A stretch of DNA of 64,000 nucleotides from Chryseobacterium artocarpi (GTDB taxonomy: Bacteria; Bacteroidota; Bacteroidia; Flavobacteriales; Weeksellaceae): assembly GCF_001684975.1 (NCBI RefSeq), contig NZ_MAYH01000012.1, positions 1 to 64,000 on the forward strand. Direction: 5' to 3'. The notes beneath the pieces are model-generated. The model did no database searches, was not told the origin of the DNA, and saw only the letters and a program-made list of their open reading frames with translations. This document shows positions 37,545 through 38,367 of this stretch, in pieces. Within the stretch, counting starts at the first letter, position 1; each line of letters starts with the position of its first letter. A program made the position numbers and the translations under genes.

Positions 37545-37572
37545 AAACCTCATCATAATAATGATGAGGTTT
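37545..37572 (-). terminator. Terminator after GIY-YIG/tRNA-like unit 1
   Basis: A 12-bp stem AAACCTCATCAT / ATGATGAGGTTT. On the minus strand it follows the tRNA-like 3' end and is followed by TTTTTTG. Near-identical hairpins occur at 37904-37931 and 38263-38290. Confidence 0.85.
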
Positions 37573-37575
37573 ATG

Positions 37576-37645
37576 TGAGCGCGAAAGGATTCGAACCTTT
37601 GACCGTCCCGATTATAAATCGGGATGCTCTATCTGATCAGAGCTA
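37576..37645 (-). pseudogene. tRNA-like 3' part overlapping GIY-YIG ORF, unit 1
   Basis: On the minus strand this begins at the D-arm (AGCTC...AGATAGAGC), has the palindromic anticodon arm TCCCGATT-TAT-AATCGGGA, and ends with the T-arm and 3' acceptor of tRNA-Arg(TCT), identical to the functional gene. The 5' acceptor strand is missing; its place is taken by the end of the GIY-YIG coding sequence, whose last 11 codons are read through the D and anticodon arms. Confidence 0.8.
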
Positions 37646-37884
37646 TTGATGAGTTTTTGTATTTTAAGTTTGCTTTTCCAAGCTTTTATTTCTCTTTCCC
37701 TTTTGTATGCATTGTTTTTTGAATCGAATTTTTCATAGTAAATAATGATCCAGTTTTTAGTTTTTGCAGTAAAGCCTTTATGGTTCGAAAGATGTTTTCT
37801 AAGTCTTTCTTGTAGATCTTCACAAGAATGTCCGATATAGTATTTGTCTAAAGACTCAGAATAAAGAATGTAACAATAACACAT
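37612..37884 (-). CDS. Small GIY-YIG endonuclease, unit 1
   Basis: This 90-aa protein consists of a single GIY-YIG nuclease fold: CYILYSES (first strand), [17 protein letters not shown] (YIG motif and catalytic-type Arg) and [12 protein letters not shown] (Glu of the metal site region). It resembles the YhbQ/UPF0213 type. The ATG chosen is six codons inside a TTG-started frame. The C-terminal [10 protein letters not shown] is encoded by tRNA-like sequence. It is the downstream member of a tandem pair of 359-bp units behind tRNA-Arg. Confidence 0.8.
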
Positions 37885-37903
37885 GCAACTAATATAAAAC
37901 AAA

Positions 37904-37931
37904 AAACCTCATCATAAAAATGATGAGGTTT
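37904..37931 (-). terminator. Terminator after GIY-YIG/tRNA-like unit 2
   Basis: Same stem as at 37545, AAACCTCATCAT-A4-TGATGAGGTTT. It separates unit 2 from the ORF of unit 1. Confidence 0.85.
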
Positions 37932-37934
37932 ATG

Positions 37935-38004
37935 TGAGCGCGAAAGGATTCGAACCTTTGACCGTCCCGATTATAAATCGGGATGCTCTATCTGATCAGA
38001 GCTA
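37935..38004 (-). pseudogene. tRNA-like 3' part overlapping GIY-YIG ORF, unit 2
   Basis: Same organisation and sequence as the tRNA-like part at 37576-37645, 359 bp away. The T-arm and 3' acceptor are identical to tRNA-Arg(TCT), the anticodon arm is palindromic with a TAT centre, and there is no 5' acceptor strand. Confidence 0.8.
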
Positions 38005-38243
38005 TTAATGAGTTTTTGTATTTTAAGTTTACTTTTCCAATCTTTTATTTCTTTTTCCCTTTTGTATGCATTGTTTTTTGAATCGAATGTTTCATGGTGA
38101 ATAATGATCCAGTCTTTAGTTCTTGCAGTAAAGCCTTTATGGTTCGAAAGATGTTTTCTAAGTCTTTCTTGTAGATCCTCACAAGAATGTCCGATATAGT
38201 ATTTGTCTAAAGACTCAGAATAAAGAATGTAACAATAACACAT
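37971..38243 (-). CDS. Small GIY-YIG endonuclease, unit 2
   Basis: This 90-aa near-copy of the ORF at 37612-37884 has the same GIY-YIG motifs. I count ten base differences between the two ORFs, seven of them changing an amino acid and all of those in the C-terminal half (for example KTKNW to RTKDW, IYYEKF to IHHETF). It lies directly behind tRNA-Arg copy 3 and its terminator. Its last codons also run into tRNA-like sequence. Confidence 0.8.
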
Positions 38244-38262
38244 GCAACTAATATAAAACAAA

Positions 38263-38290
38263 AAACCTCATCATAAAAATGATGAGGTTT
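38263..38290 (-). terminator. Terminator after tRNA-Arg copy 3
   Basis: AAACCTCATCAT-AAAA-ATGATGAGGTTT-type stem followed on the minus strand by a T run, 3 bp past the tRNA 3' end. Confidence 0.85.
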
Positions 38291-38293
38291 ATG

Positions 38294-38367
38294 TGAGCGC
38301 GAAAGGATTCGAACCTTTGACCGTCTGCTTAGAAGGCAGATGCTCTATCCAGCTGAGCTACGCACCC
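38294..38367 (-). tRNA. tRNA-Arg (anticodon TCT), copy 3
   Basis: Identical to the copies at 31355 and 31643. It is the last gene of a Ser-Pro-Arg cluster and is exactly 359 bp in register with the two tRNA-like GIY-YIG units downstream. Confidence 0.95.

Follow-up and report, generated by a model that had tools for sequence, protein, structure and literature searches.

Islands and phages that encode a tyrosine recombinase insert at the 3' ends of tRNA genes, carry a copy of the 3' part, restore the tRNA, and displace the 3' part of the host. In REPIN/RAYT systems and the IS200/IS605 family, hairpins and non-autonomous hairpin units accompany a small gene for a nuclease-like protein, and the Ssn family comprises small, stand-alone, site-specific single-strand GIY-YIG nucleases with a link to short repeated sequences. 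The GIY-YIG enzyme SegB is linked to phage tRNA genes and is reported to drive a tandem amplification of tRNA and segB (PMC13096335). Here we analyze two tandem units, each with a GIY-YIG nuclease gene and half a tRNA, that lie behind a tRNA-Arg(TCT) gene at positions 37545-38367 of a 64,000-nucleotide stretch from Chryseobacterium artocarpi (contig NZ_MAYH01000012.1, positions 1 to 64,000; hereafter the window), together with related loci from the genus, the family, and the phylum. In these loci, the upstream tRNA is whole, the 3' part of the host tRNA and its terminator have been pushed downstream, tandem arrays are formed, and many different tRNAs are concerned; in most cases, the cloverleaf of the displaced tRNA half is broken by a palindrome within it. 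The explanation that we tentatively favor is a minimal selfish element anchored to a tRNA gene, composed of a GIY-YIG gene, a tRNA half, and a palindrome at which the nuclease may act.

The units are like T-even phage SegB and the free-standing GIY-YIG homing endonucleases in that the nuclease gene adjoins tRNA genes and in the tandem amplification of tRNA and nuclease. They differ in being chromosomal, in encoding proteins of about 80-100 amino acids with little beyond the catalytic domain, in the displaced tRNA copy that is broken by a palindrome, and in their association with many tRNA species across a bacterial phylum. With the tRNA-targeting islands they have the restored tRNA 3' part and the displaced host part in common, but they have no integrase, measure only about 360 bp, occur in tandem, and contain a displaced part that is altered by the palindrome. 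Unlike REPIN/RAYT and IS200/IS605 elements, they encode a GIY-YIG and not a Y1 enzyme, are tied to tRNA genes, and have a palindrome that is not dispersed in its own genome: the idea of a dispersed palindrome was rejected with eight sites in 4.9 Mb, of which two lie in units, five are terminator-like, and one is in an apparent coding sequence. A REPIN/RAYT system was rejected on the same grounds, the lack of a Y1 enzyme and of dispersal. The Ssn family is not known to include units that are anchored to tRNA genes, repeated in tandem, or accompanied by displaced tRNA halves. Group I intron or intein homing was rejected, as the tRNA is uninterrupted and the unit lies downstream. The units act like a tRNA-restoring integrative element and a free-standing homing gene at once and lack one tested defining trait of each: they have no integrase, and they leave their target intact, with a recognition site outside the tRNA being possible. 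We found no description of such units in the open-licence literature, and they may have been published elsewhere.

Organization of the arrays in the window

The array begins with tRNA-Arg(TCT) at 38367..38293, the last gene of a Ser-Pro-Arg tRNA cluster, and continues on the minus strand with two 359-bp direct repeats in exact register. Each contains one open reading frame (ORF), and the features are as follows.

38293..38367, minus strand: functional tRNA-Arg(TCT), the host anchor of the array (ARAGORN; Rfam tRNA model, 69.8 bits)
38263..38290, minus strand: terminator-like inverted repeat 3' of the functional tRNA, unit 1 (sequence)
37971..38243, minus strand: GIY-YIG ORF of unit 1, 90 amino acids from ATG, stop included in the coordinates; 96 amino acids from TTG at 38261 (PF01541, E 3.3e-15; AlphaFold model, mean confidence 84)
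37984..37992, minus strand: D-arm piece GATAGAGCA, common to tRNA-Arg and read as codons of ORF 1 (sequence)
37965..37983, minus strand: palindrome TCCCGATTTATAATCGGGA, which replaces the anticodon arm and holds the ORF stop (sequence)
37933..37964, minus strand: variable loop, T-arm, and 3' acceptor strand in displaced position, with the same sequence as in the functional tRNA (sequence)
37904..37931, minus strand: terminator-like inverted repeat, unit 2 (sequence)
37612..37884, minus strand: GIY-YIG ORF of unit 2, 95.8% DNA identity to ORF 1 over the compared stretch (sequence comparison)
37606..37624, minus strand: palindrome of unit 2 (sequence)
37574..37605, minus strand: second displaced T-arm and 3' acceptor strand (sequence)
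37545..37572, minus strand: final terminator-like inverted repeat (sequence)

The order within a unit is thus tRNA 3' part, terminator-like inverted repeat, GIY-YIG ORF, D-arm piece, palindrome, and the next tRNA 3' part. A 300-nt repeat is shared by the units at 96% identity, and a 75-nt part is present in three copies at 99% identity. The ORF is the only one in the unit, and no tyrosine or serine recombinase is encoded. Two 359-bp units in register with tRNA-Arg(TCT), each with a terminator and a 90-amino-acid GIY-YIG ORF, had already been recognized in an earlier reading made from the window's letters (the sequence-only reading), and our analysis agrees with this, as it does with the identity of the T-arm and 3' acceptor strand to the functional tRNA, which extends over the 32 nt from the variable loop to the 3' end. 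That reading described the tRNA-like part as lacking only the 5' acceptor strand, which is inaccurate because the anticodon arm TCTGCCTTCTAAGCAGA has been swapped for an unrelated palindrome, TCCCGAT-TTATA-ATCGGGA; the key feature of the displaced half had thus been missed. The ORF was also said to run out through the D and anticodon arms. Its last 10 codons and the stop indeed traverse D-arm-like sequence, but they then enter the hairpin instead of an anticodon arm, with the stop inside the palindrome. Both displaced pieces scored 28.8 bits with the Rfam tRNA model, just below its cut-off of 29, and an Rfam search of positions 30000-39000 at E values up to 0.1 gave nothing but tRNA and sub-threshold matches to two other families.

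A second array of the same design, absent from the sequence-only account, follows another tRNA-Arg(TCT) gene at 31428..31354 and consists of seven units without ORF, and a third tRNA-Arg(TCT) copy is empty:

31354..31428, minus strand: second functional tRNA-Arg(TCT), anchor of the ORF-less array (ARAGORN)
30439..31353, minus strand: seven ORF-less units of about 130 bp (sequence)
31642..31716, minus strand: third tRNA-Arg(TCT) copy with no unit behind it (sequence)

Each ORF-less unit is made up of a terminator, a spacer, a D-arm piece, a palindrome TTCCGAT..ATCGGAA, and the displaced 3' part, and one of these tRNA pieces scored 33.8 bits, above the Rfam cut-off. A single genome therefore carries ORF-bearing, ORF-less, and empty copies of tRNA-Arg(TCT). 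Adjoining the ORF-less array, a tRNA-Pro/tRNA-Arg pair is contained in a 288-bp tandem duplication (31354-31906).

The nuclease

The window protein matched Pfam family PF01541 with 56.6 bits against a gathering threshold of 22.6, and Pfam identified GIY-YIG only and no Y1 (HUH) transposase. Among 21 chosen sequences from seven tRNA targets, residues Y5, Y16, G18, R27, H31, and E63 are invariant, and we take these to be the GIY-YIG catalytic residues. The AlphaFold model has the GIY-YIG fold (predicted local distance difference test score 84.4), and the top Foldseek hits in the PDB were the UPF0213 structures 1zg2 and 1ywl, Slx1, and I-TevI, with probabilities of 1.00, 0.97, 0.96, and 0.38 and E values of just 0.003-1.3. 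A sequence search of the PDB gave 1zg2 and 1ywl with E values of 1.1e-12 and 4.2e-11, and an Slx1 homologue with 4e-5, so that UPF0213 proteins and Slx1 are the nearest solved relatives by sequence and fold. We know of no tRNA-derived tail in UPF0213 proteins or Slx1, and Slx1 has extra domains and the partner Slx4. For three proteins, NCBIfam contained no matching family. The median ratio of nonsynonymous to synonymous substitution rates is 0.15 and all 70 pairs are below 1, the pairs being non-independent; the ORF is thus under purifying selection and the protein has been kept.

Recurrence beside tRNA genes

When the window protein was searched against 148 genomes, matches were obtained in 94, distant GIY-YIG relatives included. 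Among the close relatives in Chryseobacterium, a same-strand tRNA-Arg(tct) precedes 27 of 30 distinct loci, with the window counted among them, and the three exceptions are two contig ends and one locus (L020; loci are designated L and genomes G) without tRNA-Arg in the fetched flank. The L020 unit, on the minus strand, has the GIY-YIG gene of an Arg unit, the displaced 3' part, and the terminator of the host, and it is preceded by unrelated sequence. Twenty more distant loci have tRNA-Asp(gtc) in five cases, tRNA-Asn(gtt) in five, tRNA-Arg in one, and no tRNA in nine, and the last nine encode C-terminal parts of another type. Tandem arrays likewise occur among the Asp and Asn units, whose displaced tRNA halves contain the palindromes TCTCGTC-N-GACGAGA (Asp) and TCCCGA-N-TCGGGA (Asn). 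The possibility, raised with the sequence-only reading, that no other genome joins a GIY-YIG ORF to a tRNA part is contradicted by this recurrence behind the same and other tRNAs in many genomes.

A pattern composed of the TCCCGA palindrome and the T-loop was found in 78 of 296 family genomes (none in the backwards control) and in 107 of 395 phylum genomes from 62 of 170 genera (five genomes in the backwards control), both tallies including some ordinary tRNAs, of which nine loci were recognized. These nine are tRNA-Asp genes with TCCCGACTGTCTCTCGGGA in tRNA clusters (L126, L139, L143, L144, L146, L147, L149, L151, L152), and variable arms of tRNA-Ser or tRNA-SeC that fit the pattern were likewise set aside (L345, L374, L382, L392, L402). 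A scan of named genomes gave at least 119 stretches. Among the matches listed there are 157 palindromes, 91 with a same-strand tRNA within 600 bp upstream and 67 with a GIY-YIG match within 120 bp upstream. Of the 80 records listed, 12 have titles outside Bacteroidota or none, and four of these 12 are tRNA-Ser/SeC variable arms. The others include an Ignavibacterium record with a GIY-YIG unit and a Kiritimatiellae record in which two matches are separated by 95 bp, so the boundaries of the distribution are provisional.

Since this pattern pre-selects the palindrome, two palindrome-blind samples were taken. In the first, PF01541 was used in 21 family genomes, and 40 stand-alone ORFs were obtained from 12 of the 20 non-window genomes; proteins of at least 460 amino acids (UvrC-size and others), the two window ORFs, three second array members, two ORFs of 271-279 amino acids, and one contig-edge fragment were left out. 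A same-strand tRNA lies within 250 bp upstream of 14 of the 40, and by a rough estimate (about 45 tRNAs in 3.5 Mb) less than one such neighbor is expected by chance. Three further ORFs have a tRNA 316-453 bp upstream, four lie at a contig start, and 19 have none upstream; within these last two groups, five ORFs have an intact tRNA directly downstream. In the second sample, 247 phylum genomes were searched with the protein, 122 matched, and loci were taken from the best 30 of the 122, of which 29 were left after the window's own was dropped. A same-strand tRNA is found just upstream of the ORF or its array in 24 of the 29 (L319 was counted via its array), namely Val, Asp, Arg(acg), Ala, Asn, Thr, Gly, or Pro, and four of the five tRNA-less loci run into a contig end. 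Two of the 14 loci of the first sample, L464 and L467, are also in the second.

The unit also exists in mirror image. At L465, L466, L471, L473, and L480, the ORF precedes an intact tRNA, and in four of the five (not L466, which starts at a contig edge) the ORF is itself preceded by a 5' half of that tRNA into which a palindrome is inserted; this palindrome is in or near the D-loop or the anticodon stem, and in the displaced half only. Altogether, the units neighbor more than 12 tRNA species, counted by adjacency.

The palindrome

In units beside tRNA-Arg, 53 of 54 distinct displaced segments contain a perfect stem of at least 6 bp, compared with 54 of 1180 shuffles (20 for each of the 59 rows; five false tRNA-Ser rows had been set aside before the 54 segments were counted), and the palindrome is therefore not a product of chance. 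All seven Asp segments have a 7-bp stem, and the seven Asn segments have 6 bp in four cases, 5 bp in two, and none in one. The loops vary freely, and the stems covary (TCCCGAT/ATCGGGA, TTCCGAT/ATCGGAA, TCTCGTC/GACGAGA). The TCCCGA core was found in Arg, Asn, Val, Ala, Asp, and Lys units in which the palindrome had not been pre-selected, with Pro, Met, and Thr units joining them when loci chosen by the pattern are counted; related cores elsewhere are TCCGGC, TCCGCC, and GTCCCGGC. The core is placed in the anticodon arm of Arg, Val, and Ala units, in the 5' anticodon stem of Asn and Gly units, and in the T-arm of many Asp units and as second sites in Val and Met units. Eight pairs of palindrome types are exact inversions of each other, differing in the orientation of the loop (shuffle mean 1.5, maximum 5 in 500 trials), and both orientations are present in five loci. 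In the loci that were read letter by letter, the palindrome is lacking from the intact tRNA copy. The conservation of the same core across different tRNAs points to recognition, probably by the nuclease.

Empty and filled loci and inheritance of the units

Comparisons of empty and filled loci were made between species, and 'empty' entries at contig edges were not used. In the filled locus L025, the displaced 3' part is followed by the terminator and flank of the empty locus L186 (86% over 111 bp), and the same displacement is seen for an ORF-less unit in the pair L175/L100 (79% over 121 bp) and in the pair L169/L020 (93% over 204 bp). As L020 has no recognizable upstream tRNA, the last pair supports the displaced flank and not the restored tRNA; the other filled loci keep an intact tRNA upstream. 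The proposal that the unit brings its own tRNA 3' part, leaves a whole tRNA upstream, and displaces the host 3' half is thus supported by these pairs, with the exception just given for L020, and the alignment of empty and filled tRNA-Arg loci, which had been set beforehand as a check, revealed the difference between species only. At that level, the other ground named for giving up the sequence-only reading, a lack of any empty/filled polymorphism among relatives, is contradicted as well. Among 40 distinct stretches downstream of tRNA-Arg (30 loci, 60-genome search), eight in six loci have a GIY-YIG match within 1300 bp; the other 32 have none, and several of them contain ORF-less units (e.g., L159, L180, L181). 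The exchange point is somewhere in the shared tRNA 3' part; at L110, a tRNA-Met array, a second palindrome in the T-arm of the displaced copy confines it to the final 8 nt. The sequence-only reading placed the insertion near the D-arm, which these loci do not support. Its view of a homing-type element fits the empty and filled alleles, but not the fact that the target is not destroyed and the tRNA is intact in the filled allele.

Within arrays, DNA identity is 94-100%, whereas the best copy from another species has 80-84% in eight of nine arrays and 98.7% in the ninth, and the likeness within arrays is thus due to recent amplification or concerted evolution. In 45 of 47 arrays (59 arrays minus 12 tRNA-Pro neighbors, overlapping loci kept), displaced copy and functional tRNA share one T-stem type, and L058 and L062 have a foreign type. 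As host gene for comparison, we used the neighboring fumarase/aspartase-like ORF at 39818-41218. The GIY-YIG data reject the host topology (approximately unbiased test, p 2.6e-44), and hidden paralogy or gene conversion could be behind this rejection.

Discussion

We lean, with reservation, towards a model in which the palindrome is the cognate site of the nuclease. The unit would enter and multiply through recombination in the tRNA half that it carries, and because its own tRNA half would be used, the host would lose no tRNA on insertion. The nuclease may cut the palindrome in single-stranded or cruciform DNA and thereby raise the exchange rate, and the cut could start an unequal exchange in which the repeated tRNA parts recombine with a tRNA gene from a different copy or cell. 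ORF-less units would be non-autonomous derivatives that retain the palindrome and the tRNA part. The model draws on the linkage to tRNA genes, the pairs of empty and filled loci, the foreign T-stem types, the purifying selection on the ORF, the high identity within arrays, and the conserved palindrome core.

Several observations weigh against this model. Nuclease cutting and mobility of the unit are what we infer from the sequences, and neither has been observed. Some units have no clear palindrome (L314, L320, L325), and the sequence that follows L486 and L491 revealed no displaced tRNA half and no palindrome of this kind. TCCCGA palindromes also act as ordinary terminators in this genome, and palindromes can be inverted, and arrays amplified in tandem, without a nuclease; as the same core serves terminators and palindromes flip unaided, recognition of the palindrome is not proven. 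Of the 19 stand-alone ORFs of the family sample (19 of 40) that have no upstream tRNA, four have a downstream one and 15 have none near. Searches of 50,697 phage records and 72,556 plasmid records with the window protein gave no match, which leaves the units without a known vehicle between cells; in viral contigs there are four weak relatives only (34-35% over fewer than 50 residues) and six pattern matches besides. Finally, the identities of the GIY-YIG and host genes are correlated in 32 genomes (Mantel r 0.44, 0 of 2000 permutations as high) and the two genes share many clades, and the Arg unit is therefore largely vertically inherited in Chryseobacterium. The case for mobility is thus weaker than the sequence-only reading implied, as the Arg units partly follow the host tree, and we see in the units long-standing residents that mostly stay local, are often lost, and are transferred now and then.

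An alternative that we regard as rather unlikely is classical homing, in which the nuclease would cut the intact tRNA gene at what is now the site of the palindrome. During repair from a unit-bearing copy, the functional tRNA would be the pairing partner of the left end and the displaced half that of the right end, giving the filled structure, and the palindrome would be a scar that shields the displaced copy from cutting and kills its tRNA function. This scheme yields the observed product: within the displaced half, the palindrome is flanked on both sides by blocks matching the tRNA, the intact copy has none in the loci read letter by letter, and the mirror-image 5' form suits it equally. The upstream tRNA, however, retains the full supposed target, so the cell would cut its own tRNA gene, and a mere scar need not share its sequence across different tRNAs. 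We therefore prefer the palindrome as cognate site to a cut in the intact tRNA.

We consider it improbable that the arrays arose by passive tandem duplication, that is, by slippage at a tRNA gene with a resident GIY-YIG gene whose nuclease has no part in the spread and another job, for example in limiting DNA uptake or recombination. The largely vertical tree of the Arg units, the near-identical copies inside arrays, and the occurrence of ORF-less arrays would all be expected from slippage, but not the recurrence beside more than 12 tRNA species (by adjacency) in two mirror-image forms, the pairs of empty and filled loci, or the foreign T-stem types.

Very unlikely, in our view, is a benefit to host or element at the RNA level. 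The broken tRNAs would be transcribed and would serve as decoys or dosage devices when toxins or defences cleave tRNA, and the nuclease would amplify them in the manner of SegB. SegB is reported to drive tandem amplification of tRNA and segB (PMC13096335), and up to nine palindrome units occur on one contig (L222, G344); the copies, however, have no anticodon arm or T-arm of normal form, and in every Arg unit a separate terminator precedes the ORF. Repeats are prone to mis-assembly, but a chance, assembly, or annotation artefact is practically negligible with many genomes concerned, including single-contig ones (G127, G147, G093) and the record of Chryseobacterium jejuense DSM 19299.

Returning to the palindrome as cognate site, the units are possibly an unnamed, phylum-wide class of tRNA parasites, each composed of a GIY-YIG gene, a palindrome, and a tRNA half. 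Of the two mirror-image forms, one would displace the 3' half downstream and the other the 5' half upstream; more than 12 tRNA species would be targeted, non-autonomous derivatives would exist even in the spacers of rRNA operons, and the spread may proceed via palindrome cutting and recombination in the tRNA half. If this is true, few selfish elements in bacteria that carry a gene would be as small (about 360 bp), and the units would represent a second route, one without an integrase, for the harmless invasion of tRNA genes. They would then explain many orphan GIY-YIG ORFs beside Bacteroidota tRNA genes, as well as broken tRNA copies that annotation may miscall (one was called 'tRNA-Stop' by ARAGORN). 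The units also offer compact nucleases that are paired with candidate hairpin sites.

Further observations

ORF-less palindrome units lie behind tRNA-Ala(TGC) in rRNA-operon spacers of the same genus (L114-L119, L121-L125, and L128 in G025, G093, and G311), in several operons of one genome, and operons of G093 differ in having one or two units. At L222 in G344, of the same phylum, nine palindrome units, seven of them spaced 66-68 bp, and three GIY-YIG ORFs extend towards a contig end. Solitary tRNA-Ala-like relics whose anticodon arm contains a palindrome are present at L334 (Flexibacter sp. ATCC 35103), L328 (Flavobacterium soyae), and L445, and neither a GIY-YIG ORF nor an intact tRNA was found near them. 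The dense tRNA clusters at L151, L152, L149, and L126 in relatives, with an ordinary tRNA-Asp that matches the palindrome pattern through its anticodon arm, resemble the tRNA arrays of phages or proviruses. In the window itself, a 117-bp repeat that is unrelated to the units is present in 2.8 copies at 60641-60967, with CGCAGATCACGCAGATTTCGCTGAT inside.

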